Source: DASRDR01 sp963812945 [NCBI: uncultured Candidatus Rokubacteria bacterium] (lineage in GTDB: Bacteria; Methylomirabilota; Methylomirabilia; Rokubacteriales). Taken from it: 64,000 nt of DNA. This document shows, one piece after another, positions 12,202 to 59,338 of this stretch. Below the pieces are notes generated by a model that did no database searches, was not told the DNA's origin, and saw only the letters and a list, made by a program, of their open reading frames with translations. Location of the stretch: positions 558,001-622,000 of the forward strand of contig CAWEXD010000008.1 of assembly GCA_963812945.1 (NCBI GenBank), read 5' to 3'. The translations under genes were made by a program, and so were the position numbers. Within the stretch, counting starts at the first letter, position 1. Each line of letters begins with the position of its first letter.

Positions 12202-12390
12202 GGTGCCTCCTTCGGCGCCGGTTCCGGGCGCCTCGGGGAGGCATGTTAGCGCGAGACCGCCCGGCGCCGGCAACCCCCTCTGTCACGGACACCGGTCGAG
12301 ACCATGGCGGCGGGCCAGGCGTGAATGATTCTTCGCGTGGCGTGACGATACGTCGGCGGCCCTCGAGAACGTGGAGGGGGCGTCGCGCGC

Positions 12391-13119
12391 TCAGGGCCGG
12401 TGCGCGAGGATCGCAACCCGGGTCAGGTTTGCCGGGAAGTCCCTCGGCTCGAGGTGCCGGACGTGGATGCCCACGAGCCCGGCGCGGCGGAGCGCGTCGG
12501 TGATCTGGCCGGGCTCGTACGTCTGGAAGCGGTAGACACGCGACAGGAGGCTCCCCAGCCACCCGCGGCGGACCGCCAGGATCAGGAGCAGCCCGCCGGA
12601 TTGGAGCAAGGCTCGCAGCCTGGTGATCGTGGGCTCGAGCGGCACGTGCTCTAGCGCGCCGCTCACCGCGACGATGTCGAACGTCCGCTCCTCGACGAGG
12701 ATCGCCTGGCCGTCCAGTCCCCGCAGATGGCGAGGGTTCTGGAGGTCGCCTTCCGCCAGCTGGAGCCTGGTCGCGAGATCCGGCCGCCCCTCGGTGGCCC
12801 GGCCGGCGACCGCGAGCATCCGGCGGTCCCGGTCGAACGCGAGCGCGCGGCTGGCCGGGAAGCGGCAAAGGGCCCAGAGCGCCACGAGGCCGGTGCCGCA
12901 GCCCGCATCCAGCAGGCGCGCGCTGGACGGGACTTCCAGGTTCAGGCGGTCGAGGAAGCGCGTGACACCTCGCTCGAATCCGAGCAGAGCCAGCGAGGCG
13001 GCGTACGTCTGGGCGATGGCCCATAGGGGAATGGGCGCGGAGCTCCGGTGCTTCCTGTGCCCTGATCCCCGGAGCGGCGACGGGGTGGCGGCGACGCCTC
13101 CGCGCCCGCTCCGGGGCAC
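12391..13119 (-). CDS. class I SAM-dependent methyltransferase
   Basis: About 242 residues. Motif I is LLDAGCGTGLVALWAL. The acidic end of strand 2 is ALAFDRDRRML, motif II/III is FDIVAVSGALEHVPLEPTITRL, and the fold closes with LLLILAVRRG, all typical of UbiE/Methyltransf_11 enzymes. The substrate is unknown. The start is unclear: GTG 13119 is the first plausible codon after the upstream phoD stop (26 nt gap), but the 35 residues before the fold look poorly conserved. It lies between two phoD copies in the same direction, so it is probably transcribed from the copy 2 promoter. Confidence 0.75.
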   Translation of the reverse strand: MPRSGRGGVAATPSPLRGSGHRKHRSSAPIPLWAIAQTYAASLALLGFERGVTRFLDRLNLEVPSSARLLDAGCGTGLVALWALCRFPASRALAFDRDRRMLAVAGRATEGRPDLATRLQLAEGDLQNPRHLRGLDGQAILVEERTFDIVAVSGALEHVPLEPTITRLRALLQSGGLLLILAVRRGWLGSLLSRVYRFQTYEPGQITDALRRAGLVGIHVRHLEPRDFPANLTRVAILAHRP

Positions 13120-13145
13120 GGAGGCATCGTCCGGACCCGTCGCGC

Positions 13146-14717: not shown

Positions 14718-15307
14718 GGAGTGGCCTCCCGCGCCCTCACGGCGCAATCGATCGATGCGGCATCGCGCGCGGGCACCCGCGGCCGAGCATTCTTCCCCTG
14801 GCTCCGCGCGAGGGCACGCTATGCCCTCGGGATCTCGTCGCCATGACCGGGAGGTGAAGCTTGCGCGACGGCGAGTCCGATCCGACTCCTGCCGAGCTCG
14901 GCCGGCGGGGAATCCTCGTCACCGATTCGAGCTGGAGGGCGCCGCGAGCAGACCAGCCGACGGTGGCCGGCGCGCGATCGATGGTCCCGCACGGAACAGA
15001 GGCGACGCTGCCTGGGGCACCTCGATCGTGGATCCGGCAGGTCAACTCCATCGGGGTCGTGAGGCAGTGCGGCTCCACACGGGCTGTCGGGATACCGGGA
15101 ATCGTTGTGTGACAGCGGTTTACGTGAACGTTTGAGTCGGGTGCGTGGCCTCCCCCGAGGACGACGACCCGAGCGCCCGAGCGGGTGCCGCGCCATCGCC
15201 TCGGCCCGAGATGGAACCGTCATCGTTCCGCAAACAGCCGTTCACGAACATTCGCTATCCGTATGGCAGCCATGACCCGTCAGAGCCACCACCGACTGGA
15301 GGTAGCC
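14718..15307. other. 590-bp divergent control region between phoD and phoX
   Basis: No convincing gene is seen on either strand; the open frames here lack conserved sequence and ribosome-binding sites. The region must hold the promoters for phoD (leftward) and phoX (rightward). One clear element is an inverted repeat, CGAGGGCA (14809-14816) and TGCCCTCG (14822-14829), with a 5-nt spacer, about 95 nt upstream of the phoD start. A GTGAAC at 15124-15129 and a GTTCAC at 15239-15244 are isolated and do not make a convincing direct-repeat Pho box. Confidence 0.5.
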
Positions 15308-17275
15308 ATGTCGCGGCACGCCGCAGAGCGCGGGAACACCCCGGTGCAGCGCCCTTTCAACGACGAGGGCGTCCATTCCAACCCGGTTGTCGAGGAGCGC
15401 ACCACGTTCCAGGAGATCGTCGAAGCGCGTGTGAGCCGGCGCGGGTTCCTGAAGGGCGCGTCCGCTCTCGCGATCGGCGCCGCCGTGTCGGAGCTCGGGA
15501 GCCAGTCTTCCCTCGCCAGCCCCTCGAGCCTGACCTTCAAGGAGCTGGCTCACGGAAACGACGAGAAGTTCCACGTCGCCGAGGGGTACGATCAGACGGT
15601 CCTGATCCGCTGGGGCGACCCCGTCGTGGGTGTCGCCCCGCCGTTCGAACCGACACGCCAGACAGCGAGTGCCCAGCTGAGGCAATTCGGCTACAACAAC
15701 GACTTCATCGGCTACCTGCCACTCCCGGCCGGATCGAAGAACTCCGATCACGGCCTGCTGGTGATCAACCACGAGTACACCAACACCGATCTGATGTTCC
15801 CGGGCCTGCCGGAGAAGGACTTCAACGACGCGTTGACCCGTGAGCAGGTCGAGGTGGAGATGGCGGCCCACGGGCTTTCCGTGATCGAGGTCAAGAAGAG
15901 CGGTGGCAAGTGGACCGTCGTGCCGAACAGCCGCTATGCTCGGCGCATCTCCGCCTCGACGACCGAGATGCGCGTGGCCGGGCCCGCGGCGGCACACGAC
16001 CGGCTGAGGACCTCGGTTGATCCGACCGGCGCGCGAGTGATCGGTACCCTGAACAACTGCGCGGGCGGCATTACCCAGTGGGGCACCGTGCTGACCGCCG
16101 AAGAGAACTTCAACGGCTACTTCAGCGGGGACGGCGCCGGCACGAAGGAAGCCGCCAACCACAAGCGGTACGGGCTGCCCAAGGTCAGCTGGTACGGCTG
16201 GCACCGTTTCCACGACCGCCTGGTCGTCGCGAAGGAGCCCAACGAGCCCAACCGCTACGGGTGGATGGTGGAGTTCGACCCGTACGACCCGCTGTCGGTC
16301 CCGGTCAAGCGGACGGCCATGGGCCGCTTCAAGCACGAGGGCGCTCACACGATCATCAACCGGGACGGCCGGGTCGTCGCCTATTCCGGGGACGACGAGC
16401 GCTTCGACTACCTCTACAAGTTCGTCTCTGACCGGCGGTACGACCCGGACAACCGGGCCGCCAACAAGGACATTCTCGACTCGGGGGCGCTGTTCGTCGC
16501 CAGATTCGACGCCGACGGCACGATGACTTGGCTCCCCTTGGTGTGGGGGACGGGACCCCTGATGCCGGACAATGGCTTCAACAGCCAGGCGGACGTGCTG
16601 ATCGAGGCACGGCGCGCGAGCGACCTCCTGGGGGCCACGCCGATGGATCGGCCGGAGGACGTCGAGCCGAACCCGGTGACCGGGGCCGTCTACCTGATCC
16701 TGACGAACAACTCGAATCGCACCAAGGAAAAGGTGGATGCCGCCAACCCACGGCCGGCCAACAAGCACGGCCATGTCATCGAGATGGTGCCGCCGGGCAG
16801 CGGCGCCGACGTCGACCATGCCGCCCTGAAGTTCCGATGGAACATCCTCCTGCTGGCGGGCAATCCGCGGAAGGCGGAGGATGGCGCCAAGTACCACGGC
16901 GAGGTGACGGAGAACGGGTGGCTGTCGTGCCCCGACAACTGTGCATTCGACAACCAGGGACGTCTCTGGATCGCCACCGACGGCGCTCCCACCGCGGCTG
17001 GCTTCGCCGACGGCGTGTGGGGGACCGACACGGTCGGCGGCGGTCGCGCCCTGACTCGGCACTTCCTCCGCACACCCCGGGGCGCCGAGCTGTGCGGACC
17101 GTGCTTCACGCCGGACGACAAGACCCTGTTCGTGGCGGTCCAGCATCCGGGCGACGAGAAAGGGTCGACCTTCGAGAAGCCGGCGACCCGCTGGCCGGAC
17201 TTCAGCCCGAGCATGCCGCCGCGCCCGGCAGTGGTGGCGATCACCAAGGTGGACGCCGGGGTGATCGGCTCGTAG
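15308..17275 (+). CDS. phoX: PhoX-type alkaline phosphatase (DUF839)
   Basis: A 655-residue periplasmic phosphatase of the PhoX family, which hydrolyses phosphomonoesters using Ca2+ and Fe3+. ATG 15308 is chosen because GGAGG sits five bases upstream. The Tat signal is unusually internal ([20 protein letters not shown], about residues 43-62), as is usual in PhoX. The propeller contains [72 protein letters not shown] and [19 protein letters not shown], the blocks that carry the metal ligands and active-site arginines. It ends 25 nt before a strong hairpin terminator. Confidence 0.93.
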
Positions 17276-25992: not shown

Positions 25993-28053
25993 TCAGTCGC
26001 GGCGGGCGCCGATCAGCTCGTAGATCTTCTCCTGCGAGCGCACGCTGACCTCCCCCTCCGGCGGCCGCACTCTGATCGAGGTGCCATCCGGCTGAAGCAG
26101 GCGGGCCTTCGCCGTGTCGAGGAGCTGGACGTCAAGGATCTCGCGGACGTCCGCCTGCAGCCGGGGATCCAGAATGGGGAAGGCGCTCTCGACCCGGTGG
26201 TCGAGGTTGCGCGGCATCCAGTCGGCGGAGGCGAGGTAGTACTCCGGGGTGCTCCCGTTCTCGAAGTAGTAGATCCGGGCGTGCTCGAGGAAGCGGTCGA
26301 CGATCGAGACCACCCGGATGCGCTCCGACATTCCCGGCACGCCCGGCCTGAGGCAGCACGTCCCGCGGACGAGGAGATCGATCCGGACGCCCGCCTGACT
26401 CGCCTCGTAGAGCTCCTGGATGATCGGCCAGTCGACGAGGCTGTTGGCCTTCGCCACGATCCGGGCGGGGCGCCCCGCCCGCGCGTGCGCGGCCTCGCGC
26501 CGGATCTTCTCGACGAGCGCGTTCCTGAGCCCGGTGGGCGCCACCAGGAGGTGGTTGAAGCGAACCGGCCGCGTGTAGCCCGTCAGGAGGTTGAAGAGCT
26601 CGGTGAGGTCCTCGCCGAACGCCTCGCGGCACGTGAACAGGCCCAGGTCCGCATAGATCCCGCCGGTCCGTGCGTTGTAGTTCCCGGTGGCCAGATGACA
26701 GTACCGGCGGATGCCGTCCGGCTCCTGGCGCACGACGAGGCAGGCCTTGCAGTGCGTCTTGTAGCCGGGGAGGCCGTAGACCACGTGGGCGCCGACCTCC
26801 TCGAGCGCCTGGGCCCAGCGGATGTTGGCCTCCTCGTCGAACCGGGCGCGCAGCTCGACCAGCACCGCCACTTCCTTGCCCGCCTGGGCGGCGAGGGTCA
26901 GCGCCTTCGCGATGGGCGACGTCGGGCTGACGCGGTAGAGCGTCATGTTGATGGCCAGGACGCGCGGGTCGGTCGCGGCTTCCTGGACGAAGCGCGTGAC
27001 GACGTCGAAGGGCTGGTAGGGATGGTGGACGAGGATGTCGCCCTCGCGGATCGCGCTCCACACGTCGGGGGCGCCCTCGAACGCCCGCACCGGGTGCGGC
27101 GTCAACGGGCGGTCCTTGAGCCGCGGCAGGTCGACGGCGGCGTAGAGCTGTCCGAGGTCGGTGAACGCGGTGAACCCCTCGCCGGCGTAGAGGTCCCCGG
27201 GCTCCAGCTCGAGCTCTTCCACCAGCCGCGCCAGGACCTCGGGCGGCAGGTCGGGATCGTACTGGAGGCGGACCGCGTCACCCATCCGGCGCTCGCGCAG
27301 GCTCTCCTCGATGGCCTTCAGGAGGTCGTCGGCCGACCGCCCGCCGGTCAGCGGCACGTCGGCGTCACGCGTCACCCGGATCGCGTGGGCGGATAGGATC
27401 TCGTAGCCGTGGTAGAGCCGGTGGAGATTCAGCCGGATCACGTCCTCGAGCAGCATGAAGCTGTGCTCGCCGGGCGCCGACGGGAGGCGGATGAACCGGG
27501 GAATCACCTGGGCGGGGATGTGGATGACCGCCAGCGAGGCGCTCGGCAGCACGGACGGGGCCGTCGGCCGGAGGGAGACGATGAGACAGAGGGCGCGGTT
27601 GACGAGGTGGGGGAAGGGGTGACCCGGGTCGATCGCGAGCGGCGTCACCACCGGGAGGAGCGTCCGGCTAAAGTACTGATCCAGGACCTTGGCCTGCTCG
27701 GGGGTCACCTCTTTGGGACGGATGATCCGGATGCCCTCGGCGACGAGGCGCGGCTGGATGTCCGCCAGGAAGCACCGGTGCTGCTCCTGGACGAGAGCGT
27801 GCACGCGCTCGGAGACGGCCGCCAGGGTCTGGGACGGCGACAGCCCGTCGGCGGCGGCGGCCTGGTCGCCGACCCAGATCCGCTGCTTGAGGTCGGCCAC
27901 CCGGACCATGAAGAACTCGTCCAGGTTCGAGCTGAAGATCGACAGGAACTTGACGCGCTCCAGGAGGGGCACGGTCGTGTCCTGGGCTTCCTCCAGCACC
28001 CGCCGGTTGAACTCGAGCCACGACAGCTCGCGGTTGATCATGCGCTCGGACAT
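25993..28053 (-). CDS. ppk1: polyphosphate kinase 1
   Basis: A 686-residue PPK1 that reversibly makes polyphosphate from ATP. The N-terminal domain opens RELSWLEFNRRVLEEAQD and SIFSSNLDEFFMVRVADLKQ. The catalytic half carries the phosphorylated histidine in GYKTHCKACLVVRQ and the second active-site block YCHLATGNYNARTGGIYADL, plus a late ASADWMPRNLDHRVE. Length is normal. It is 4 nt downstream of ppx on the same transcript, so synthesis and breakdown of polyphosphate are controlled together. Confidence 0.95.
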   Translation of the reverse strand: MSERMINRELSWLEFNRRVLEEAQDTTVPLLERVKFLSIFSSNLDEFFMVRVADLKQRIWVGDQAAAADGLSPSQTLAAVSERVHALVQEQHRCFLADIQPRLVAEGIRIIRPKEVTPEQAKVLDQYFSRTLLPVVTPLAIDPGHPFPHLVNRALCLIVSLRPTAPSVLPSASLAVIHIPAQVIPRFIRLPSAPGEHSFMLLEDVIRLNLHRLYHGYEILSAHAIRVTRDADVPLTGGRSADDLLKAIEESLRERRMGDAVRLQYDPDLPPEVLARLVEELELEPGDLYAGEGFTAFTDLGQLYAAVDLPRLKDRPLTPHPVRAFEGAPDVWSAIREGDILVHHPYQPFDVVTRFVQEAATDPRVLAINMTLYRVSPTSPIAKALTLAAQAGKEVAVLVELRARFDEEANIRWAQALEEVGAHVVYGLPGYKTHCKACLVVRQEPDGIRRYCHLATGNYNARTGGIYADLGLFTCREAFGEDLTELFNLLTGYTRPVRFNHLLVAPTGLRNALVEKIRREAAHARAGRPARIVAKANSLVDWPIIQELYEASQAGVRIDLLVRGTCCLRPGVPGMSERIRVVSIVDRFLEHARIYYFENGSTPEYYLASADWMPRNLDHRVESAFPILDPRLQADVREILDVQLLDTAKARLLQPDGTSIRVRPPEGEVSVRSQEKIYELIGARRD

Positions 28054-28057
28054 GTGG

Positions 28058-28978
28058 TCAGCCCTCGTCGGTAAACGTCTCGCGAAGCAGCAGCGCGTCG
28101 CGGACGCCTTGCTTGCAGATGGTCATGCCGTGGTATCCGCCGAACGTCATGAGCTCCTCGATCACGATCGCGCCGGCCAGGATGATGTCGGCCCGCTCCG
28201 ACCGGAGCCCGGGCACCTTGCGCCGCTTCGCCAGCGGGAGGGCCTCCAGCCGCGCCCGGATGCGCGTGACGTCGGGCTGCTGGAGGCGCAAGCCGTGGCG
28301 CGACCGGTGCTCCTCCCCCCGCGCGGCGAGGTGGATGCGCCCCAGGGTTCGAACAGTCCCGCCCAGGGCCACGATCTCCTCGCCACGCTCGGCGGCGGGG
28401 AGCGCCTTGGCGAGGCGAGTCCGCACCTCCGTCCGGAGGCCGCGCAGCTCGCCGGGGGTGGGAGGGTCACCGCGTAGGAAGCGGCGCGTCATCCGCACCG
28501 CGCCAATCGGCACGTTGGAAGTCGAGGCCACGTGCCCCGCCCGCAGACGCGTCAGCTGAAGGCTGCCGCCGCCGAGGTCGGCCACCAGGCCATCCTCCAT
28601 GTGAAGGCTCGACTGGACCGCGAGCGCGCCGAGAAGGGCCTCCTCGCGCCCGCTCAGGATCCGGATCTCGATGCCATCCCGGCGCCGGAGCGGACCCAGG
28701 AGGCGCTCACGGTTCGACGCGTCGCGGACGGCGGCGGTCGCCACGGCGATCACCCGAGGATTCCGGTCGCGGCGGGCGCGAGCGAGGAACTTGTGCACCG
28801 CCGCGACCGTGCGCGTGATCGCCTCGGCCGGCAGCGTTCCGGGCTGGCCGCTCCCCAGACGGGTCTGCACGCGCTCCTCCTCGAGCACCTCGAAACCGAT
28901 CCCCGGGCCCAGCCTCGCGACCAGGAGGCGGACGGCGTTTGAGCCCAATTCGACCAAGGCGACGACATCACCTGCCAC
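28058..28978 (-). CDS. ppx: exopolyphosphatase/pppGpp phosphohydrolase (Ppx/GppA)
   Basis: A 306-residue ASKHA-fold hydrolase. The N-terminal phosphate loop is VELGSNAVRLLVARLGPG. ATAAVRDASNRERLLGPL and IRILSGREEALLGALAVQSS (with the catalytic Glu region) follow, then the second phosphate loop VADLGGGSLQLTRL. It is the short form, lacking the C-terminal HD domain of E. coli Ppx. It cleaves phosphate from polyphosphate ends or converts pppGpp to ppGpp. It precedes ppk by 4 nt and diverges from the phoB/pst region. Confidence 0.9.
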   Translation of the reverse strand: MAGDVVALVELGSNAVRLLVARLGPGIGFEVLEEERVQTRLGSGQPGTLPAEAITRTVAAVHKFLARARRDRNPRVIAVATAAVRDASNRERLLGPLRRRDGIEIRILSGREEALLGALAVQSSLHMEDGLVADLGGGSLQLTRLRAGHVASTSNVPIGAVRMTRRFLRGDPPTPGELRGLRTEVRTRLAKALPAAERGEEIVALGGTVRTLGRIHLAARGEEHRSRHGLRLQQPDVTRIRARLEALPLAKRRKVPGLRSERADIILAGAIVIEELMTFGGYHGMTICKQGVRDALLLRETFTDEG

Positions 28979-28994
28979 GGGCCCGCATGCTACC

Positions 28995-29055
28995 CGTCCG
29001 GGGCCGCGGGGACAACCGCACCCCCCGTCCGGGGCCGCGGCGACGACCGGACCCC
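28995..29055. repeat. two-copy 31-bp tandem repeat in the ppx/phoB divergent region
   Basis: Each unit begins CGTCCGGGGCCGCGG and ends ACCCC, with period 31 nt (28995-29025 and 29026-29055). Units differ at a few positions. It lies just upstream of ppx, in the 224-nt gap before the next frame. Confidence 0.6.
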
Positions 29056-29164
29056 GGTGACAGCTTCGCCCGAGGGTACGGTGGTCGAGGTCTCGACTTC
29101 TATTACGTTTTCGTGACGGCCTGATCCACCGTTTCTGTCCCCGTCACCGAAGCTTCCTACTTCC

Positions 29165-29185
29165 GTAACGGGACGGCAACTTGAC
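29165..29185 (+). promoter_or_regulatory. candidate Pho-type operator, site 1
   Basis: GTAACGGGACGGCAACTTGAC shares the pattern GTWACG-N5-GCAACWTGAC with a site at 30351-30371 upstream of pstS. Fourteen of 21 positions agree. It lies 18 nt before the amphi-Trp-like gene and upstream of the phoB-like gene. The role is inferred from position; it does not match the E. coli Pho box. Confidence 0.3.
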
Positions 29186-29202
29186 GAGTCCAACGTCCGC
29201 TC

Positions 29203-29580
29203 GTGGTGTCGATCCCGTCTCGCTTCCGTGGACGGACCCGTCGTGATGCGGCAGCGTTCTATCTCTCGCAGCTCGCCCGGGGAATCCTGGCGGGCGAGCT
29301 CGAGGTGCGGGTCGGCCACGAGACGGTCCCGGTGAAGCCGCCCGATTTCCTGATTCTCGAGATCGCCGTTGCCCAGAAATCCCACGCGAGCCACATCTCG
29401 GTACGCGTTCGCTTCCCACGCCGCCCCCGCTCGAATCGCGCCGCCGCCGGCCGTGGGCAGCGACGCCAGGCTCCCGCGGAACCGCGCGGCGGGGGTCACC
29501 TAGAATTTACTCCGACGTCATCCGGACGCAACCCTGCGGCGCCACACTCCCACACAGTTGCAGATGCGCGCGACCGATGA
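29203..29580 (+). CDS. amphi-Trp domain-like small protein
   Basis: GTG 29203 starts a 125-residue frame. Residues 14-68 (RDAAAFYLSQLARGILAGEL, then VPVKPPDFLILEIAV, then SHISVRVRF) have the helix followed by alternating-charge beta strands typical of amphi-Trp domain proteins, which are short and usually end with the last strand. The 55 residues after RVRF look like random coding sequence and run into the start of the next gene, so either the true protein ends in an altered tail or a small frameshift removed its stop. The biological role of the family is unclear. Confidence 0.45.
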   Translation: MVSIPSRFRGRTRRDAAAFYLSQLARGILAGELEVRVGHETVPVKPPDFLILEIAVAQKSHASHISVRVRFPRRPRSNRAAAGRGQRRQAPAEPRGGGHLEFTPTSSGRNPAAPHSHTVADARDR

Positions 29581-30343
29581 CACGAGCGAGATGACGGCGC
29601 GCCGGCCGGGCGCATCGCCCGGCCGGCGTCCGACGGCCCGCATCCTGGTCGCCGAGGACGAGCGGGACGTTGCCGAGCTGATCCGCTACACGCTGGACCG
29701 CGAGGGGTTCGAGGTCATCGTCGCGGCGAACGGCGCCGATGCGCTTCGGGAGGCGCGGGACAGCCGCCCCGACCTGGTGCTGCTCGACCTCATGCTCCCG
29801 CAGGTGAATGGGTGGGAGCTGTGCCGGCGCCTCAAGCAGGATCCCGCGACGCGTGCCCTGCCCGTGATCATGCTCACCGCCCGGTCGGAAGAAGGCGACA
29901 AGGTGCTCGGCTTCGAGCTGGGCGCCGACGACTACGTGACCAAGCCATTCTCCACGCGCGAGCTGGTCGCCCGGGTTCGCGCCGTCGTCCGGCGGTCCCG
30001 GCCCCCCGAGGCCGAGGAGCGACGCCATCGGATCAAGGTGGGCGACCTCCTGGTGGACCGGCAGCGGTTCGAGGTCACGGTCGGCGGGCGCGCGGTGGCG
30101 CTCACCCCGAAGGAGTTCGAGCTGTTGGCCACGCTCGCCGCCGAGCCGGGCCGCGTCTTCGGTCGCGATGAGCTGCTCGACCTCGTCTGGGGTCGGGACG
30201 GCTTCGTCGAGCCCCGGACCGTGGACGTCCACCTCGCGCGTCTTCGGGCCAAGTTCGTGGCGGCGCGCCTGCCCGAGCCCGGCATCGAGACGGTCCGGGG
30301 GGTGGGGTACCGGTACCGGGAGCCGGGTCGATCGCCCTCGTAA
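29564..30343 (+). CDS. phoB: PhoB-type response regulator (OmpR family)
   Basis: About 259 residues. The receiver domain begins ARILVAEDERDVAELIRYTL, with the phospho-acceptor in LVLLDLMLPQVNGWEL and the switch lysine in GADDYVTKPFSTREL. The C-terminal winged helix carries LTPKEFELLATLAAEPGRVF and the recognition helix PRTVDVHLARLRAKF. It lies 74 nt before pstS, which supports a role in phosphate control. No histidine kinase is adjacent; a PhoR-like kinase lies at 42488-44296 with its own regulator. The start is uncertain: TTG 29558, ATG 29564 or ATG 29591, all before the conserved fold. Confidence 0.85.
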   Translation: MRATDDTSEMTARRPGASPGRRPTARILVAEDERDVAELIRYTLDREGFEVIVAANGADALREARDSRPDLVLLDLMLPQVNGWELCRRLKQDPATRALPVIMLTARSEEGDKVLGFELGADDYVTKPFSTRELVARVRAVVRRSRPPEAEERRHRIKVGDLLVDRQRFEVTVGGRAVALTPKEFELLATLAAEPGRVFGRDELLDLVWGRDGFVEPRTVDVHLARLRAKFVAARLPEPGIETVRGVGYRYREPGRSPS

Positions 30344-30350
30344 CCCAGAC

Positions 30351-30371
30351 GTTACGTCGTCGCAACATGAC
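30351..30371 (+). promoter_or_regulatory. candidate Pho-type operator, site 2, upstream of pstS
   Basis: GTTACGTCGTCGCAACATGAC matches site 1 at 29165-29185 in the pattern GTWACG-N5-GCAACWTGAC. Its first six bases also form an inverted repeat with CGTAAC at 30339-30344 (6-nt spacer). It lies 46 nt before the pstS start. Inferred only. Confidence 0.35.
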
Positions 30372-30417
30372 TGACACGTGAGCCGTGAACCCTAGAGCCA
30401 TACACGGAGGACAACGC

Positions 30418-31389
30418 ATGAGAATCAGAGCGATCCTGGCGGCAGCGGCTGTGGCGGCCGTCCTCGAGGCCGGGCTGGCCGGCGCCCAGATCCAGGTGGA
30501 TCCGGCCCTCGCCACCTACAAGGCGACGAGCGGCGTCAGCGGCAACGTCTCGAGCGTGGGCTCGGACACCCTCAACAACCTGATGACGCTCTGGGCCGAG
30601 CACTTCAACAAGTTCTACCCGAACGCCAAGATCCAGATCGAGGGCAAGGGCTCCTCGACCGCCCCGCCCGCCCTGATCTCCGGCACCGCTCAGCTCGGCC
30701 CCATGTCCCGCGAGATGAAGGGCACCGAGGTCGACCAGTTCGAGAAGAAGTACGGCTACAAGCCGACGCCGCTCCGCACCTCGGTGGACGCGCTGGCCGT
30801 GTTCGTGAACAAGGACAACCCGATCGCGTGCCTCAGCATGTCCCAGGTGGACGCGGTGTTCTCGAAGAGCCGCCGGTCGGGGGCCAAGGATGACGCCAAG
30901 ACCTGGGGGCAGCTCGGGTTGACCGGGGAGTGGGCCACCCGGCCCATCAGTCTCTACGGCCGGAACTCGGCGTCCGGAACCTACGGGTTCTTCAAGGAGC
31001 ACGTCCTGAAGAACGGCGACTACAAGGACGAGGTGAAGGAGCAGCCGGGATCGGCCGCGGTGGTCCAGGGCGTGACCGTCGACCGGTACGCGATGGGCTA
31101 CAGCGGCATCGGGTACGCGACCGCGGGCGTCCGCGCCGTGCCGCTGTCCGCCAAGGAAGGGGACCGGTGCCACGAGGCGACTCCGGACGAGGCGTACTCG
31201 GGGAAGTACCCCCTCTCGCGCTTCCTCTTCGTCTACATCAACAAGGCGCCCGGGAAGGCCCTCGACCCGGTTACCCGCGAGTTCGCCAGGCTCATCATGT
31301 CCAAGGAAGGGCAAGAGGTCGTCGTCAAGGACGGCTACTTCCCGCTCCCGGCCTCGATCACGAAGGAAGAGCTGAACAAGATCCAATAG
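30418..31389 (+). CDS. pstS: phosphate ABC transporter substrate-binding protein PstS
   Basis: A 323-residue periplasmic phosphate-binding protein. ATG 30418 with GGAGG upstream gives a Sec signal ending GLAGAQ. Phosphate-site blocks are SSVGSDTLNNLMTLWAEHF, GKGSSTAPPALISGTAQLGP (the STAP loop), NPIACLSMSQVDAVFS and YGRNSASGTYGFFKEHVL. It captures inorganic phosphate for PstCAB. The stop is followed at once by the pstC ATG with no gap. A strong induction signal under phosphate limitation would be expected, given the phoB-like gene upstream. Confidence 0.95.
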   Translation: MRIRAILAAAAVAAVLEAGLAGAQIQVDPALATYKATSGVSGNVSSVGSDTLNNLMTLWAEHFNKFYPNAKIQIEGKGSSTAPPALISGTAQLGPMSREMKGTEVDQFEKKYGYKPTPLRTSVDALAVFVNKDNPIACLSMSQVDAVFSKSRRSGAKDDAKTWGQLGLTGEWATRPISLYGRNSASGTYGFFKEHVLKNGDYKDEVKEQPGSAAVVQGVTVDRYAMGYSGIGYATAGVRAVPLSAKEGDRCHEATPDEAYSGKYPLSRFLFVYINKAPGKALDPVTREFARLIMSKEGQEVVVKDGYFPLPASITKEELNKIQ

Positions 31390-51614: not shown

Positions 51615-51656
51615 TTGACGTAAAGCATTGATTCTATGGGTGCGTCTGATTATTCC
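51615..51656 (+). promoter_or_regulatory. possible promoter before the sigma factor gene
   Basis: A locally A+T-rich patch contains TTGATT (51628-51633) and TATTCC (51651-51656) with a 17-nt spacer, and a TTGACG at 51615. An ECF-type GGAAC element was not seen. Weak evidence. Confidence 0.25.
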
Positions 51657-51725
51657 ACTGCGCACTGTCCAAGCGGGGCCTCGGAGGCTTTTCACGCAAC
51701 GGGGGTTGCGGGGTCTTCATTCGTG

Positions 51726-52253
51726 ATGAGCGACCGGAGCTTCGAGGCTCTGATGGCCGACCACCATGCCGAAATCTATCGATACGTCCTCCGGGTGACG
51801 GGGCGGCGGCAGGACGCCGACGACCTCTCGCAGGAGACGTTCCTGCGCGCGTTCCGGGCCCACCGGGCGCTGCCACCCGACGCCAACCAGCGAGCCTGGC
51901 TCTTCGCCATCGCGACGAACCTCACCCGGAACCACTTCCGCTCCCAGAAGCGGCGCCGGGTCGCCTACGCGGCGGTCGTGACGGAGACCCGGGATGTTGA
52001 CGAGGACCGACCGGACGGAATGAGCATCTCCCGGGAGATCGGGGCCGCCGTGGACCAGGTGGTCTCGGGTCTCCCGCTCCGGCAGCGTCTGGCCTTCCTC
52101 CAGCGGAAGGTCCACGGGCTCGACTACGACGCGATTGGCCAGAGCCTCCAGTGCTCGGCGGAGACGGCCCGAGCTCACGTATTCCAGGCCCTCCGCAAGG
52201 TCCGCCGCGCCCTCGAGGGTCGCGAGCTGATCGGGAAGGAGTTCGTGGCGTGA
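51726..52253 (+). CDS. RNA polymerase sigma factor, ECF type
   Basis: A 175-residue two-domain sigma factor. Sigma-2 is in DHHAEIYRYVLRVTGRRQDA and DLSQETFLRAFRAHRAL (core binding and -10 recognition), with NQRAWLFAIATNLTRNHFRS. Sigma-4 is in LPLRQRLAFLQRKVHGLDYD and IGQSLQCSAETARAHVFQAL. The start at ATG 51726 fits the family; the longer frame from 51636 adds 30 unrelated residues. The stop overlaps the GTG of the next gene, which encodes an anti-sigma zinc-finger domain fused to DNA repair modules, so the two are a sigma/anti-sigma pair. Confidence 0.9.
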   Translation: MSDRSFEALMADHHAEIYRYVLRVTGRRQDADDLSQETFLRAFRAHRALPPDANQRAWLFAIATNLTRNHFRSQKRRRVAYAAVVTETRDVDEDRPDGMSISREIGAAVDQVVSGLPLRQRLAFLQRKVHGLDYDAIGQSLQCSAETARAHVFQALRKVRRALEGRELIGKEFVA

Positions 52254-53224
52254 AGACGAGGCCGGAGGGCTGCAGGGCGATCGAGCCGGACCTGGTCGCC
52301 GCGGCGATCGGCGAATCGGACCCCATCGCCGAGGGGCGAGTGACCGCGCACGTTGCGAAGTGCGAGCCGTGCCGGACCGATCATGCCGGCTACCGCGCAA
52401 TCGACCGCGAGCTCGGGCGGATGCAGGCGGCGCCCGTCGACTCCCAGGGTGCGCTCCGGTCGCGGGAGCGGCTGGAAGCACGGCTCGGCGACATCCGGAG
52501 CCGGATCGTGTCCTATCGGGTCTTCGACTCCTCGCTGGGGCCAATCCTGCTGGCGCACTCGGAGCAGGGCGTGGTGCTTCTCGAGTACCTGCGCGGGTCC
52601 GCCGATCTCGCGGCCTCGCGCCTTGCCCGCATGCGGGGGATCGAGGCGGTCGAGGACGATGGCGCGGCCGAGGGGCTCTACCGGGACTTCCTGGCGTACG
52701 TGGAGGGGCGGGCGCAGCGGCTGCCGTGGTCGCTCGATCTCCGACTGGCCCGGAGCCCGTTCCAGCGGAAGGTGCTCGAGCACACGGCCCAGATCCCGTA
52801 CGGCGCAGTCGTCTCGTACAAGCGGCTGGCGAGCGACCTCGGGCAGCCGCGCGCCGTGCGCGCCGTGGCGCAGGCGCTCCGCTGGAACCCGGTTCCGATC
52901 GCGATCCCGTGCCACCGCGTGGTCGGAGCCAGCGGGCTCCTCACGGGGTACGCCGGCGGCGAGACCACCCGGAAGCGGCAGCTCCTCAGCACCGAGGGCG
53001 TGCCCATGGTGCCGGCGCACGAGGACTTCGCGATCGCGCGCGGGGCGATGTACATCATCGCACCCGGGGACAGCGAGTACTGCATCCCGAGCTGCGCGTC
53101 CACGGAGACGCTCCAGTCCGGGCTTCTGACGTACTTCGGCTCCCGGATCCGCGCCGAGGCGGCGGGACACAATCCCTGCACGACGTGCCGGCCCGACCTC
53201 CACCCGCTCCACGAGGTCGCCTGA
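52250..53224 (+). CDS. anti-sigma zinc finger - O6-alkylguanine-DNA alkyltransferase - Ada-type Zn(Cys)4 fusion
   Basis: 324 residues in three parts. (1) Residues 1-55 carry an HxxxCxxC zinc-binding anti-sigma motif (H34, C38, C41 in TAHVAKCEPCR), the ZAS motif of ECF partners. (2) Residues about 87-255 are a full O6-alkylguanine-DNA alkyltransferase: ARSPFQRKVLEHTAQIPYG, the helix-turn-helix with arginine finger (QPRAVRAVAQAL), and the acceptor cysteine C221 in IAIPCHRVVG. (3) Residues about 265-318 hold C278-x3-C282 ... C310-x2-C313, in EYCIPSCAST and AGHNPCTTCRPD. Their spacing is nearly that of the methyl-phosphotriester-sensing zinc site of E. coli Ada (C38, C42, C69, C72). The AraC domain of Ada is absent. 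Inferred role: alkyl transfer to C278 or C221 changes the protein and frees the sigma factor encoded upstream. GTG 52250 overlaps the sigma stop. Confidence 0.88.
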   Translation: MKTRPEGCRAIEPDLVAAAIGESDPIAEGRVTAHVAKCEPCRTDHAGYRAIDRELGRMQAAPVDSQGALRSRERLEARLGDIRSRIVSYRVFDSSLGPILLAHSEQGVVLLEYLRGSADLAASRLARMRGIEAVEDDGAAEGLYRDFLAYVEGRAQRLPWSLDLRLARSPFQRKVLEHTAQIPYGAVVSYKRLASDLGQPRAVRAVAQALRWNPVPIAIPCHRVVGASGLLTGYAGGETTRKRQLLSTEGVPMVPAHEDFAIARGAMYIIAPGDSEYCIPSCASTETLQSGLLTYFGSRIRAEAAGHNPCTTCRPDLHPLHEVA

Positions 53225-54144
53225 CGACCGGCACCGTACCGCATTCTGCCGTTCCGGCGGACGAGGTCCTGTTTCCAGGCTTCCGCCGCGAGCGTCTCCG
53301 GACGCGCGAGACGGACATTCATGCCGTCGTGGGTGGCCAGGGGCCGCCGGTGCTCCTCCTCCACGGGTATCCCCAGACGCACGCGTGCTGGCACCGGATC
53401 GCACCGGCGCTGGCGTCCCGCTTCACGGTGGTCTGCCCGGACCTCCGCGGCTACGGAGACAGCGGGTGCCCGCCCTCGGACCCGGAGCACCGCGCGTACG
53501 CCAAGCGGGCCATGGCGCAGGATCAGGTCGAGGTGATGGCGCAGCTCGGATTCCAGCGTTTCGCCGTGGTCGGCCACGACCGGGGTGGGCGCGTCGCGTA
53601 CCGGCTGGCGCTCGACCGGCCGGAGCGGGTGACGCGCCTGGCCGTGCTGGACATCGTTCCGACCCTGGAGACCTGGGCGCGGATGGACCGGAGCGGCGGC
53701 CTGGCGTCCTACCACTGGCTCTTCCTGGCGCAGCCCGCCGATCTGCCCGAGCGCCTGATCGGCGCCGACCCGGACTACTTCCTCCGGTGGACGCTCCGGA
53801 GTTGGGCCGAGCGGCCCGACTCGTTCGACGCCCGGGCGCTCGCCGAGTACCAGCGAGCGTTCCGGGACCCGGCGGTCATCCACGCCACCTGCGAGGACTA
53901 CCGGGCCGGGGCCACCGTCGACCTGCGGGACGACGCGGCCGACCGGGACCACCGCCGGATCACCTGCCCGGTCCTTGCCCTCTGGGGCGTGCGCCGGCCG
54001 TCGGGCCGCGAGTGGGACCCGATCGCGATCTGGCGCGACTGGGCGAGTGACGTCCGCGGCCAGGCGATCCGGTGCGGCCACTTCCTGCCGGAGGAAGCCC
54101 CCACGGAGACCCTCGCCGCCCTCGAGCCGTTCCTCGCCGCGTAG
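53221..54144 (+). CDS. haloacetate dehalogenase-like alpha/beta hydrolase
   Basis: About 300 residues, closely patterned on fluoroacetate dehalogenases. The nucleophile aspartate is in VVGHDRGGRVAYRLALDRP, followed by RVTRLAVLDIVPT and the halide/cap block YHWLFLAQPADLPERLIGAD. The catalytic His is in RCGHFLPEEAP. It hydrolyses the carbon-halogen bond of haloacetates. The start is unclear: CTG 53221 overlaps the preceding stop (CTGA), CTG 53269 matches the family N-terminus (MFxGF pattern), and GTG 53185 would overlap upstream coding sequence by 40 nt. No ATG fits. Its position after an alkylation sensor is suggestive, because haloacids are alkylating agents. Confidence 0.83.
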   Translation: MTTGTVPHSAVPADEVLFPGFRRERLRTRETDIHAVVGGQGPPVLLLHGYPQTHACWHRIAPALASRFTVVCPDLRGYGDSGCPPSDPEHRAYAKRAMAQDQVEVMAQLGFQRFAVVGHDRGGRVAYRLALDRPERVTRLAVLDIVPTLETWARMDRSGGLASYHWLFLAQPADLPERLIGADPDYFLRWTLRSWAERPDSFDARALAEYQRAFRDPAVIHATCEDYRAGATVDLRDDAADRDHRRITCPVLALWGVRRPSGREWDPIAIWRDWASDVRGQAIRCGHFLPEEAPTETLAALEPFLAA

Positions 54145-54230
54145 CCGGCTCCCTCCCGGGCTTTCCTGACCCTCCGGCCGTTTCACACGGCCTCCCTCAC
54201 GGTGTCTCAACAGGCAGGAGGAGGCCGGAC

Positions 54231-54611
54231 ATGCTGACTACCGCACTCATGGTTCTGACGATGTTCTCGCCCGTCCTCGTGGTTCTGGCGCTGTTGGCCC
54301 TCGCCGCCTGGCGGGACCGTCGCCGGGAGGCGATGATCGCGCGTCAGATCGGTCTCACCGATGCCATCGCCGATCAGCTCGGTGCGATCGTGGCGCCCGT
54401 CGTGACGAAGCCCCTTGGGCGGCCGTGGCGGGTGGACATCCACGTGCCGGTTGGCCGGCCCGCGACGGTGAGCCGCATCGTGGGCATCGCGCACGACACC
54501 CTGACGCGGATGGGCGCCGGGCGGTACGAGCTGGTCCTCACCCCGGACCCGGTGTCGGCCGGTCCGCTGGCGCCCGCGCCCCGTTCCGCGCGGCGGCTCC
54601 AGGCTGCGTGA
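54231..54611 (+). CDS. hypothetical single-helix membrane protein
   Basis: A 126-residue protein from ATG 54231, with AGGAGGAGG upstream. Residues 3-27 are one hydrophobic helix (TTALMVLTMFSPVLVVLALL), then a charged soluble domain with GLTDAIADQLGAIVAPVVTK and VDIHVPVGRPATVSRIVGIA. No family is recognised. The stop overlaps the next small gene (GTGA), so the pair are co-translated. Confidence 0.65.
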   Translation: MLTTALMVLTMFSPVLVVLALLALAAWRDRRREAMIARQIGLTDAIADQLGAIVAPVVTKPLGRPWRVDIHVPVGRPATVSRIVGIAHDTLTRMGAGRYELVLTPDPVSAGPLAPAPRSARRLQAA

Positions 54612-55969: not shown

Positions 55970-57043
55970 TCAGGCGCCGTTCGAGGACTCGTCCGGCTCC
56001 GGGAGCGCGTAGCGGTAGGTCTTGCCCGCGTAGTTCCGGAGCACGATCTCGCGGTCCGTGACCGACTGCACGTAGTCGGGCAGGAGCGGGATCTTCCCTC
56101 CGCCGCCCGGCGCGTCGATGACGTAGTGCGGGACGGCGAGCCCCGATGTCCATCCCCGGAGGGCTGCGATGATCTCCAGCCCCTTCTTGACCGACGTGCG
56201 AAAGTGCTCCGCGCCGGCGACGAGGTCGGCCTGGTAGAGGTAGTACGGTCGGACCCGGCACTTCAGGAGCTCCTGCATGAGGCGCTTCATGATCTCCGGA
56301 TCGTCGTTCACGCCCTTCAGGAGCACGGTTTGGCTGCCCAGCGGACAGCCGGCATCGGCAATCCTCGCCAGCGCCGCCCGGGTCGCCGGCGTCAGCTCGT
56401 CGGGGTGATTGACGTGCACGTTCACGAACACCGGGTGGTATTTCTTGATCGTCTCGCAGAGCGCGGGCGTGATGCGTTCGGGCAGCTGCGAGGGAATCCG
56501 GGTGTGGATGCGCACGATCTCGACGTGGGGGATCGCCCGGAGCTTGCCGAGGAAGTACTCGACCCGACGGTCCGAGAGCATGAGCGGATCCCCGCCCGAG
56601 AGGGCGACGTCGCGGACCTCGGTGTGTCGGTGGATGTAGTCGAACGCCGCGTCGAACTGACCGAGGGGAATCTTCTCGGGATCCCCCACCTTGCGCCGCC
56701 GGGTGCAGAAGCGGCAGTAGGCCGCGCACACCGGGCTGACCAGGAAGAGGACGCGATCGGGGTAGCGGTGGGTGATGTTCGGCACCGGTGAGTCCGCGTC
56801 CTCGCTGAGCGAATCTACGATCCCGTCCACCACCTCGTTTTCCTCGGGTGTCGGGACGTACTGCAGCCAGAATGGGTCTCCTGGCTTCTGGAGGAGTTGG
56901 AGCACTTCGGGCGTGATGCGGAGGTTGAAGCGATCGATCGCCCGCTGCACGGCGTCCCGGTCCACATGCTCGATCCCGAAGCGCTCGACGAGCTCGCCGA
57001 CCGTGGTGACCGATTCGTGGAGGCTCTCTTGCCAGTGCGTCAC
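55970..57043 (-). CDS. kamA: lysine 2,3-aminomutase family radical SAM enzyme
   Basis: 357 residues. The SAM cluster is C106-x3-C110-x2-C113 (VSPVCAAYCRFCTRRRKVG). EDADSPVPNITHRYPDRVLF, VRDVALSGGDPLMLSDRRVE and HVNHPDELTPATRAALARIA are conserved. The aspartates that hold lysine in known aminomutases are present (YYLYQADL and VIDAPGGGGK), as is the PLP lysine of that last motif. The C-terminal cysteine cluster of the clostridial enzyme is missing, so the protein is the short form. It should convert L-lysine to beta-lysine; an EpmB-like role is possible, but no EF-P or EpmA gene is near. ATG 57043 overlaps the stop of the ATP-grasp gene. Confidence 0.9.
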   Translation of the reverse strand: MTHWQESLHESVTTVGELVERFGIEHVDRDAVQRAIDRFNLRITPEVLQLLQKPGDPFWLQYVPTPEENEVVDGIVDSLSEDADSPVPNITHRYPDRVLFLVSPVCAAYCRFCTRRRKVGDPEKIPLGQFDAAFDYIHRHTEVRDVALSGGDPLMLSDRRVEYFLGKLRAIPHVEIVRIHTRIPSQLPERITPALCETIKKYHPVFVNVHVNHPDELTPATRAALARIADAGCPLGSQTVLLKGVNDDPEIMKRLMQELLKCRVRPYYLYQADLVAGAEHFRTSVKKGLEIIAALRGWTSGLAVPHYVIDAPGGGGKIPLLPDYVQSVTDREIVLRNYAGKTYRYALPEPDESSNGA

Positions 57044-58158
57044 GTCGACCTCGTCCCCCTGGGCTCACGCGGGCCGGCGGCCAGCGCAAGGTGTTGGGTG
57101 TACGGCATGCCCTCCATCGGGCGCCGAGCGTGGACGAGCCCCGGCAGGGAAGCCGGGCCCGGGGTCGCCCCCCGGCGAGTCCGGGCAAGGGCCTCGTCCA
57201 CGATCCGAGCGATCAAGTCGACGTAGCTCCAGCCGGCGGCAGCCGCCTGGCGCGCCAATCCGGCGCTCTCGCCGAGGTCCGGATTGGGGTTCACGTCGGT
57301 GACGAACGTCGTGCCTCGGCCGTCGACGCGGACGTCGATGCGGCCGTACCCCGCCCCCTCGACCGCAGCCCAGACCCGCTCGGCCAGCCGAGTCAGGTCT
57401 CGGGCCAGGCGCGCCGGCAGGCGCGCGGGGCATACCGGCACGGTTCCGCGCTCCTCCGGGCTGCCGTAGTCCCACTTCGCGGCGTACGAGACGATCGGCG
57501 GCAGCCCGCGGGGCATGGTCGTGAAGTCGATCTCGGCGTGCGGGAGCACCCGCCCGCCCACGATGGCGAGGTTGAATTCCCGGCCCCGGATGAACCGCTG
57601 GACGAGCATCGGGCCCCACTGCTGGCACGTCTGCGACAGGACGGCTTCCAGCGCGGCGCGATCGCGGACGACCGAGTCGGAGCTGATCCCGAACGATCCG
57701 TCCTCGGCGGCGGGCTTCACGATGGCCGGGTACCGGCGCCAGGGTCCCGGCGCCACGTCCGGGCGCGCCAGCATCCAGGGAGGAACCGGTATGCCATGGG
57801 CCCGGAGGACGGCGTTCGCGCGGTCCTTCCTGAGGCACAGCGCGAGCATCTCCGACGGGGCGCCGGTCAGAGGGATGCCCAGGAGCTCGACCAAGGCGGC
57901 AGCGGCGGGCTCCCCGGCCGCCTGGTTGTTCATCCCCTCGCAGAGGTTGAAGACCAGCTGGAAGCGTCCGTTCGCCAGCTCCGCAACCCAGTCTGTCGGG
58001 TTTCCGCTGAACTCGACGGCTACCGGGTCGTAGCCGAGCGCCCGGAGGGCCATCTTCACCGGACCTGGGCTGCCAGGGGCGCTTGGAGTGCCCATCGACT
58101 GCGCCGTCGCTTCCGACTGGGCGTCGGTGATGACGGCGACCCGAGGCCGCCCCCGCAT
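57040..58158 (-). CDS. ATP-grasp ligase, D-Ala-D-Ala ligase-like (A)
   Basis: About 372 residues. The N-terminal domain has FQLVFNLCEGMNNQAAGEPA. The ATP-grasp core has RYPAIVKPAAEDGSFGISSD, LVQRFIRGREFNLAIVGGRV and FVTDVNPNPDLGESAGLARQ (metal-binding Glu/Asn). The arrangement is that of D-Ala-D-Ala ligase, but the substrate is unlikely to be D-Ala here. It is sandwiched between a second ATP-grasp gene and kamA with overlapping or near-overlapping ends. ATG 58158 is preferred; upstream in-frame ATGs would overlap the preceding gene. Confidence 0.83.
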   Translation of the reverse strand: MRGRPRVAVITDAQSEATAQSMGTPSAPGSPGPVKMALRALGYDPVAVEFSGNPTDWVAELANGRFQLVFNLCEGMNNQAAGEPAAAALVELLGIPLTGAPSEMLALCLRKDRANAVLRAHGIPVPPWMLARPDVAPGPWRRYPAIVKPAAEDGSFGISSDSVVRDRAALEAVLSQTCQQWGPMLVQRFIRGREFNLAIVGGRVLPHAEIDFTTMPRGLPPIVSYAAKWDYGSPEERGTVPVCPARLPARLARDLTRLAERVWAAVEGAGYGRIDVRVDGRGTTFVTDVNPNPDLGESAGLARQAAAAGWSYVDLIARIVDEALARTRRGATPGPASLPGLVHARRPMEGMPYTQHLALAAGPREPRGTRST

Positions 58159-58180
58159 CGTCGGCCGCCGGGGACGCGGC

Positions 58181-59338
58181 CTAGACGGTAATCCCATAGC
58201 GCGCGGCACCGGCGGACAGCACGGCCCGGATCATGGCCCCGTAGTCCAGACCAGCCGCCCGGGCGGCCTTCGGGAAGCAGGAGTTCATCTCGGGATCGGG
58301 CAACACACCCGGCAGGGGGTTCACCTCGATGATGTGCGGCACCCCGCGGCCATCGCACCGGACGTCGATGCGAGCCCAGTCGCGGCAGCGCAGCACCCGG
58401 TAGGCGGCCAGCACCGTCCGCTCGATCGCCCGCCCGAGGCTCGGAGGCACGGAGGCCGGGCACCGGAAGATCTCGAGGGGCCGGTCCGGCGTGTCCCAGA
58501 TCCACTTGGCCTCGTACGAGTAGAGGCGAGCCGCCCCCTTCGGCAGCGCGTCGAAGTCGACCTCGACGGGGGGGAGGAGGCGGGTGCCGGGACCGTTCCC
58601 CAGGATCGCGCACGTGAACTCCCGGCCGGGGAGCCAGCGCTCGACGAGCGCGGGCTGACGGTACCGGCGTCGCACCACGCCGATGGCGCGGCCGACCTCG
58701 GCCCGAGTCCGGCAAAGGGACGCCTGGGTGATCCCCTTGCTCGATCCCTCGTGGACGGGCTTGACGACGACGGGAAGGGGGGGCAGGGCGGGCAGGCTGG
58801 CGAGCCGCACGTCCGGCGCCACGACCGCGAACCGGGCGGTCGGGATGCCGTGATAGGCGAGGATCTCCTTGGCGCGTGCCTTGTCGAGACAGATCGCGAG
58901 GGTCAGGGGGTCACTGCCGGTGTAGGGGACGTTCCAGAACTCGCAGAAGGACGGCACGTGCGCCTCGCGGCTCGGCCCCCACAGGCCCTCGGCCACGTTG
59001 AAGACGATGTCGGGCCGGCCTTCGCGCAGGCGGAGCGGGAAGTCCTCCGTCGCCTCGAGCCGGACGACCTCGCCCACCTTCATCAGGGCGGCTTCCATCG
59101 CGGCGACGGTGACCTCGTCGTCCCACTCCGCGTAGAGGTCCGCCAGGGCCCGCGCGCCCAGAGACGCGGGAACGGCGGACGGAACGGCGCCGTCCTCCGG
59201 CTTCTTGTTGAAGGCGAGACCGATTCGGAGGGAGGTTCCCTGCCGGGCGTCGGGCCGCCGGGGGGGAAGGGCCGTCTCGGCCGTCCAGGCGGCCGACGAG
59301 GCGTGTGCGCGCGGAGGGGTGCTCGAGCGCTGCGTCAC
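58181..59338 (-). CDS. ATP-grasp ligase, D-Ala-D-Ala ligase-like (B)
   Basis: About 385 residues. DIVFNVAEGLWGPSREAHVP, YTGSDPLTLAICLDKARAKE and VVVKPVHEGSSKGITQASLC (glycine-rich ATP loop) are followed by LVERWLPGREFTCAILGNGP and HIIEVNPLPGVLPDPEMNSC. It is a diverged paralogue of protein A. GTG 59338 overlaps the stop of the upstream cysteine-cluster gene. The first 40 residues are low-complexity and may be linker. The pair could make successive peptide-like bonds, for example on a beta-lysine product. Confidence 0.83.
   Translation of the reverse strand: MTQRSSTPPRAHASSAAWTAETALPPRRPDARQGTSLRIGLAFNKKPEDGAVPSAVPASLGARALADLYAEWDDEVTVAAMEAALMKVGEVVRLEATEDFPLRLREGRPDIVFNVAEGLWGPSREAHVPSFCEFWNVPYTGSDPLTLAICLDKARAKEILAYHGIPTARFAVVAPDVRLASLPALPPLPVVVKPVHEGSSKGITQASLCRTRAEVGRAIGVVRRRYRQPALVERWLPGREFTCAILGNGPGTRLLPPVEVDFDALPKGAARLYSYEAKWIWDTPDRPLEIFRCPASVPPSLGRAIERTVLAAYRVLRCRDWARIDVRCDGRGVPHIIEVNPLPGVLPDPEMNSCFPKAARAAGLDYGAMIRAVLSAGAARYGITV

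Follow-up and report, generated by a model that had tools for sequence, protein, structure and literature searches.

Escherichia coli Ada combines an N-terminal four-cysteine metal domain with a helix-turn-helix of the AraC type and, like AdaA and Cada2, binds DNA itself. These three proteins are described as methylation-operated regulators, and in Cada2 of Caulobacter the cysteine of the PCHR motif is reported to be methylated and required for the regulatory switch; the Cada2-like plan comprises B-box and RLHD helix-turn-helix parts and a C-terminal methyltransferase (PMC10957082). For class I anti-sigma factors, an H-x3-C-x2-C motif spread over helices 2 and 3 is used as a mark (PMC7406223), and RsrA binds zinc through Cys11, His37, Cys41 and Cys44 (PMC4960319). 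Among the extracytoplasmic function (ECF) sigma factors, the ECF122 group appears in a 2022 review as having 6-O-methylguanine DNA methyltransferases for gene neighbours, no cognate anti-sigma factor and an unknown mechanism (PMC8999054). Here we analyse a stretch of 64,000 nucleotides from an uncultured Candidatus Rokubacteria bacterium (contig CAWEXD010000008.1, positions 558,001 to 622,000; "the window" means this whole stretch), in which an ECF sigma gene is followed by the gene of a protein, termed the partner, that carries a zinc anti-sigma motif, an O6-methylguanine-DNA methyltransferase domain and an Ada-type metal site (Table 1).

We propose, with a probability of about two in three, that this pair is an alkylation-responsive sigma/anti-sigma switch, in which the partner acts as a soluble anti-sigma factor with a suicide alkyltransferase and an Ada metal site as its sensor. 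The proposal builds on features read from the sequences, namely the domains and their ligands, the coupling of the two genes, their co-variation and, in relatives, common promoter-like blocks before genes for methyltransferases, short-chain dehydrogenases/reductases (SDRs) and an epoxide hydrolase. In an undamaged cell, the N-terminal zinc helical domain of the partner would hold the ECF sigma factor. Upon damage, an alkyl group would move to Cys221 (from O6-alkylguanine), to the Ada metal-site cysteine Cys278 or to both, and the alkylated partner would change its shape or stability and set the sigma factor free. The free sigma factor would then transcribe its own operon, renewing the pair, together with alkylation-repair and detoxification genes. 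Within this scheme, we infer both the inhibition of the sigma factor by the partner and its relief by alkylation.

Table 1. Features of the sigma/partner locus, in window coordinates
Feature	Position	Strand	Basis or remark
Promoter-like site before the sigma gene: TTTTCAC, 14 nt, GGGGTCT	51689..51716	+	two-block word; GTG 51723 / ATG 51726 almost adjoining
ECF sigma factor, 175 aa, regions 2 and 4	51726..52253	+	Pfam and PDB comparison
Partner, 324 aa: zinc anti-sigma motif, methyltransferase, Ada metal site	52250..53224	+	GTG start; Pfam, NCBIfam, PDB comparison
N-terminal zinc anti-sigma region, aa 8-42; C8, H34, C38, C41	52271..52375	+	zf-HC2, alignment, model
O6-methylguanine-DNA methyltransferase catalytic domain, aa 170-251; PCHR aa 220-223 (52907-52918)	52757..53002	+	Pfam, PDB, alignment
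C-terminal Ada-type metal-binding domain, aa 277-316; C278, C282, C310, C313	53078..53197	+	Pfam, alignment
Alpha/beta hydrolase, fluoroacetate dehalogenase / epoxide hydrolase kind	53269..54144 (open reading frame stretch 53224-54144)	+	homology
Second promoter-like site: TTTCAC, 14 nt, GGTGTCT	54181..54207	+	pattern search; 126-aa protein behind
126-aa protein, hydrophobic N-terminus, behind the second promoter-like site	54231..54611	+	open reading frame

Domains of the sigma factor and its partner

The window sigma factor has the form of an ECF member, a short protein with regions 2 and 4. It matches Sigma70_r2 (PF04542, E 1.4e-15) and Sigma70_r4_2 (PF08281, E 4.8e-10) in Pfam as well as the NCBIfam model sigma70-ECF (86.2 bits, cut-off 42.9), and in the PDB it is matched best by ECF-type sigma factors. 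A longer open reading frame (ORF) starting at 51636 is possible, and GTG 51723 and ATG 51726 are both candidate start codons; the start at 51726 is preferred over 51636 because the promoter-like site upstream would otherwise fall within the longer ORF.

The methyltransferase domain of the partner is matched by PF01035 with an E-value of 6.9e-31; ahead of it, residues 88-120 weakly resemble the methyltransferase N-terminal domain. An Asn hinge and a Glu are functional in O6-alkylguanine-DNA alkyltransferase domains, and the catalytic domain of the partner holds both in addition to PCHR. At the C-terminus, the Ada site is recognised by PF02805 (Ada_Zn_binding, 2.8e-5, 24.4 bits, cut-off 23), and N-Ada structures in the PDB match the partner weakly (1adn, E 0.0054). 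The N-terminal CHCC ligands are spaced 26/4/3, as in RsrA, and the H-x3-C-x2-C motif of class I anti-sigma factors is present in 16 of the 16 members of the window's clade, with helix placement taken from a single-sequence model. In this model of residues 1-89 (predicted local distance difference test score, pLDDT, 83.6), helices at 13-19, 25-35, 39-60 and 66-88 are positioned much like the four helices of RsrA (PMC4960319). A fold model of the whole partner was discarded (mean pLDDT 37.7).

A sequence-only reading of the window had described an ECF sigma gene that overlaps, by 4 nt, a gene for an Ada-like anti-sigma factor with a zinc motif (H34, C38, C41), an alkyltransferase with PCHR and C221, and a Cys4 Ada site. 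The present analysis bears out the coordinates, the overlap between the sigma end and the partner GTG at 52250 and, by Pfam, the methyltransferase and Ada parts of the partner; the zinc motif, weakly matched in the window itself, is backed by relatives, and C8 joins its ligands. The term Ada-like holds for the domain content; the partner is not an Ada, as its metal site is C-terminal and Pfam returned no helix-turn-helix match, of the AraC type or otherwise, at E <=0.1.

Linkage and conservation among relatives

Single-protein scans of genome contigs and viral contigs with the partner gave zero confirmed relatives, and the members described here come from genome samples and named plasmids. Two genomes, one of a Candidatus Binatia and one of a Candidatus Binatota, each encode a full-length relative, with 39% identity from residue 7 onwards. 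Proteins of these two genomes also share 70-72% identity with the window's polyphosphate kinase, whereas the other 78 of the best 80 loci of a pattern-based scan reach 45-51%; by this comparison, the window would probably come from their group. In a sample of 145 genomes from the class of one Candidatus Binatia genome (G001), 38 match the partner at E <=1e-28, 14 of them at full length; 36 of the 40 matches listed were examined further (G693, G774, G745 and G678 were left out). The fifteenth full-length relative (G087, 49% identity) was obtained by sampling 297 genomes of G001's phylum, of which 267 have some match at E <=0.001, among the matches listed mostly to the methyltransferase part alone. 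All 15 full-length relatives fetched keep the zinc ligands, PCHR, the Ada cysteines and an upstream sigma gene; this is the order of zinc motif, alkyltransferase and Ada site beside an ECF gene that the sequence-only reading had suggested searching for.

A shorter form of the partner, without the zinc motif, is found in the class of G001, in the Actinomycetota and in the Chloroflexota. Of 346 genomes in the Actinomycetota (the phylum to which one Rhodococcus genome belongs), 96 have a match at E <=1e-20, and 24 strong matches span the Ada part; three weaker ones, which reach the Ada part across stop codons, were left out (G578, G524, G552). Within the Chloroflexota (the phylum of an Anaerolineales genome), 63 of 350 genomes match at E <=1e-28, and loci were fetched for 20 of the 65 matches listed. 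Named plasmids of Rubrobacter, Nonomuraea and Streptomyces add members, with L142 appearing to be the Rubrobacter plasmid L001 (same protein). Cultured carriers such as Rubrobacter radiotolerans or a Streptomyces with the pair have the short form. Plasmid candidates from Ensifer (L002) and Novosphingobium (L003) were rejected, as their sequences resemble a simple methyltransferase and a typical Ada.

In 64 of 69 loci, an ECF sigma gene lies directly upstream of the partner gene and in the same orientation, with gaps of -20 to +21 nt; 24 of 24 Actinomycetota loci are among the 64. The five exceptions are L193, L199 and L206, which have no adjoining sigma gene, and L172 and L173, which are cut by the contig start. 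The genomes of L193 and L199 each hold another copy of the methyltransferase-Ada family. At L211, the sigma gene is present and the Ada site absent. The Chloroflexota loci carry the sigma gene upstream in 17 of 20 cases (not in L346, L357 and L360) and PCHR in all 20. In addition, a plasmid of Streptomyces sp. NBC_00212 (L007, 2401-3747) encodes a single ORF of 448 residues composed of sigma region 4, methyltransferase and Ada site. Region 2 was not recognised in this ORF, which is apparently a natural fusion with a worn sigma part.

A scan of 67 loci for further methyltransferase-like genes found an alkyltransferase-like gene, with PWQRV in place of PCHRV, downstream in 10 of the 15 full-length loci and in the same orientation; of the other five, two have less than 800 nt of downstream sequence. 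PCHR methyltransferase genes lie downstream in eight loci (L207-L210, L232, L233, L004, L006), and another such gene follows the fusion ORF of L007, which stands outside the scanned set. That plain methyltransferases too follow some pairs, and that contact between sigma factor and partner is a prediction, would suit co-transcription alone, in which a repair enzyme shares the operon of an otherwise governed sigma factor and never touches it. Such an arrangement is very improbable, given that the two genes adjoin in 64 of 69 loci and in 17 of 20 Chloroflexota loci, that every member of one clade has the zinc anti-sigma motif and that a natural sigma-methyltransferase-Ada ORF exists.

The 64 pairs that were aligned comprise the window and 63 loci (L211 and the five sigma-less loci were left out). 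Across all 64 partners, P220, C221, H222, R223, N213 and E249 of the methyltransferase and C278, C282, C310 and C313 of the Ada site are invariant, and the zinc ligands C8, H34, C38 and C41 show no variation among the 16 full-length members, of which the window is one; H-x3-C-x2-C is absent from 48 of the 64. In a tree built by a quick method, with long branches flagged, the full-length members, the short members of G001's phylum and the Actinomycetota members form one clade each (Shimodaira-Hasegawa-like approximate likelihood ratio test support 97, 98 and 99). Sigma and partner distances correlate within clades at 0.984 (n=16), 0.888 (n=21) and 0.912 (n=27), with 0 of 2000 permutations reaching each value, and the shared ancestry of the genomes contributes to these correlations.

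Two alternative modes of action bear on this pattern. The partner may be a co-activator, whose methylated Ada site lets it bind DNA or the sigma factor and aid transcription in the manner of methylated Ada, with the zinc motif as a tether. The invariant Ada cysteines, the 48 members without an anti-sigma motif and the methylated PCHR cysteine that accompanies Cada2 activation in Caulobacter (PMC10957082) would all fit this role; the partner, however, has no helix-turn-helix match, and the full CHCC site of the window's clade matches that of a known inhibitor, RsrA. For the family as a whole we regard co-activation as unlikely, and for the short members without the zinc motif as a real alternative. 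Alternatively, the N-terminal zinc thiols could sense redox changes or electrophiles, as in RsrA, while the methyltransferase part merely repairs. The ligand spacing shared with RsrA speaks for such a switch, but it is improbable, given that 48 of 64 members keep PCHR, the Ada cysteines and the sigma gene without any zinc motif and that the candidate regulon in relatives includes alkyltransferases.

Promoter-like sites and the candidate regulon

ECF genes usually have a promoter of their own, with two blocks about 16 nt apart, and a putative promoter of this two-block style precedes the window sigma gene. At <=1 mismatch the window, which has 67-76% G+C in 4-kb steps, contains two such sites, compared with a mean of 0.04 in shuffled sequence and two sites in 0 of 100 shuffles. 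Similar words occur before the sigma genes of the relatives, in counts that are inflated by close relatives: TTCAC-15-GTGTC in 13 of 15 full-length relatives (maximum in one shuffled set 2), TTCAC-15-GGGTT in 14 of 21 short members of G001's phylum (3), GAAAC-16-GTGTT in 14 of 27 Actinomycetota loci (4) and GCAAC-16-GTGTT in 10 of 17 Chloroflexota loci (3). Among the full-length relatives, the distance from the site to the sigma stop codon is 685-760 nt in seven G001-like loci (L179-L182, L188, L191, L100) and 532-598 nt in the other eight.

Across the 15 genomes that encode a full-length partner, the pattern TTTCAC-14-GGKGTCT has 19 exact sites, compared with 1 when it is reversed; 12 of the 19 are at the sigma gene and 7 elsewhere. 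Of these seven, two precede stand-alone methyltransferase genes (L299 in G696, L293 in G653), two precede SDR genes (L296 in G696, L295 in G708) and one lies 120 nt from an epoxide hydrolase gene (L297 in G653). The remaining two are found at a small protein on the opposite strand at the G087 sigma locus (L294) and inside an ORF (L298). With one mismatch allowed, the same genomes yield 35 sites versus 14 for the control; the 18 that were read add a third methyltransferase gene (L257) and an SDR gene (L263), both in G708. A control pattern with its spacing one base short showed no excess (16 sites versus 18 reversed), and none of its sites were at sigma genes. The Actinomycetota pattern, searched in 17 genomes of that phylum, has 72 sites, which include the sigma promoter, versus 34 for the control; one site, with one mismatch, lies 45 nt before the methyltransferase gene downstream of the pair in G633 (L232). 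The sequence-only reading had suggested looking for a shared promoter motif before 51726 and before repair genes elsewhere in the genome; promoter-like sites do stand before 51726 and, in three related genomes, before methyltransferase genes. Directly behind the promoter-site methyltransferase genes of G696 (L299, 643-963) and G708 (L257), proteins of 103-106 residues carry an Ada-like cysteine site (weak PF02805, 6.1e-4 and 8.9e-4).

The hydrolase behind the partner, a possible operon mate of the pair, matches Alr0039 (1.4e-108) and fluoroacetate dehalogenase (4.8e-100). Its expected start has no ATG, GTG or TTG, and homology places it at CTG 53269 as the sequence is read. The 126-aa protein has zero Pfam matches at E <=0.01. 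Elsewhere in the window, a phosphate cluster (10633-17275 and 25993-31389) encodes PhoD and PhoX phosphatases and an OmpR-type response regulator by Pfam, a periplasmic-binding protein by Pfam that is of the PstS kind from its position, and a polyphosphate kinase. At 55970-58209, a gene of the D-ala D-ala ligase type is overlapped by a lysine 2,3-aminomutase-like radical SAM gene.

A candidate alkylation switch beside known systems

Several results weigh against a sigma factor held by the partner and released by alkylation. The match of the window partner to zf-HC2 is weak (E 0.027, 15.0 bits, below the curated cut-off of 22.2), a match that is backed by its relatives, because zf-HC2 reaches E <=0.1 in 13 of the 16 full-length members, counting the window, with a best value of 2.2e-5, and the four ligands are invariant. 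Fold searches with the model of residues 1-89 returned generic helical bundles, with no anti-sigma structure listed, and phmmer of the N-terminal stretch against the PDB found no match at E <=10. No known anti-sigma domain is recognised in the 48 members without H-x3-C-x2-C, and L193, L199 and L206 hold a partner-type gene without a neighbouring sigma gene where a contig end offers no explanation. As regards the regulon, several of the 18 one-mismatch sites read precede no sensible gene, and 1 of 8 non-sigma sites read in the Actinomycetota precedes a methyltransferase gene. Furthermore, the partner could be methylated purely in the course of repair.

The sequence-only reading had itself named homologues without HxxxCxxC or without a neighbouring sigma gene as evidence against such a switch; on the first count the full-length members conform and the short ones do not, and on the second the sigma gene is present in 64 of 69 loci. 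Its central idea of an alkylation switch made of a sigma factor and an Ada-like anti-sigma factor gains support from the domains, the linkage, the co-variation and the promoter-like sites before methyltransferase genes of three genomes. A broader view would be that a suicide repair enzyme widely acts as anti-sigma factor to, or gate for, its cognate ECF sigma factor, each repair event freeing or arming the sigma factor, with the full zinc form of Binatia-type genomes showing how the short Actinomycetota and Chloroflexota forms work and with the pair standing in for Ada. For this wider scheme we see the chances as evenly balanced. The last element is suggested because the partner is the sole Ada_Zn match in 16 of 21 genomes; of the other five, four have a second Ada_Zn match, and in G684 the sole match is a stronger Ada_Zn protein elsewhere. 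Alkylating electrophiles would be a plausible stress for the window's kin, since the Binatota are described as methylotrophs with chloromethanes among their substrates and as carriers of haloalkane dehalogenases (PMC8262859).

If true, the switch would be a further widespread bacterial route to the adaptive response to DNA alkylation and would provide a testable account of alkylation defence across large bacterial groups. In the open-licence literature, we found no published description of a sigma factor paired with an Ada-like partner; the sequence-only reading likewise knew of no described system with this design. The word "sigma" has 0 occurrences in PMC10779285. A sigma/anti-sigma version would unite two regulatory schemes for which a joint description was likewise not found in that literature.

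The pair resembles RsrA and ChrR, class I anti-sigma factors, in that the partner gene adjoins an ECF sigma gene with translational overlap and encodes an N-terminal CHCC site with the spacing of RsrA; the joining of a zinc domain to a sensor domain follows the plan of ChrR (PMC8999054, PMC4960319). In contrast to both, whose sensors are the zinc thiols alone or a cupin, the predicted sensor of the partner is a DNA alkyltransferase with an Ada metal site. With E. coli Ada, the partner shares a methyltransferase and a four-cysteine site in one regulatory protein and, putatively, a self-regulated operon, whereas its metal site is C-terminal instead of N-terminal and it would act via a sigma factor, having no match to an AraC-type helix-turn-helix. 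Like Cada2, the partner would use a methyltransferase as a methylation-operated transcription switch; Cada2, however, lacks the four-cysteine site and acts as a DNA-binding factor, whereas the partner has a sigma mate and no helix-turn-helix match (PMC10957082). ECF122, compared by description only, has methyltransferase neighbours in common with the window sigma factor, and unlike ECF122 as listed, the window sigma factor has a candidate anti-sigma partner. The association of sigma factor and methyltransferase may thus have been seen before, as ECF122, because the review lists this group beside 6-O-methylguanine DNA methyltransferases (PMC8999054). Beyond that listing, the present analysis contributes an Ada site at the C-terminus, a zinc anti-sigma domain carried by one clade, promoter-like sites and a candidate regulon, and if the window sigma factor is an ECF122 member, the pair would offer a mechanism for a group whose mechanism is listed as unknown (PMC8999054).
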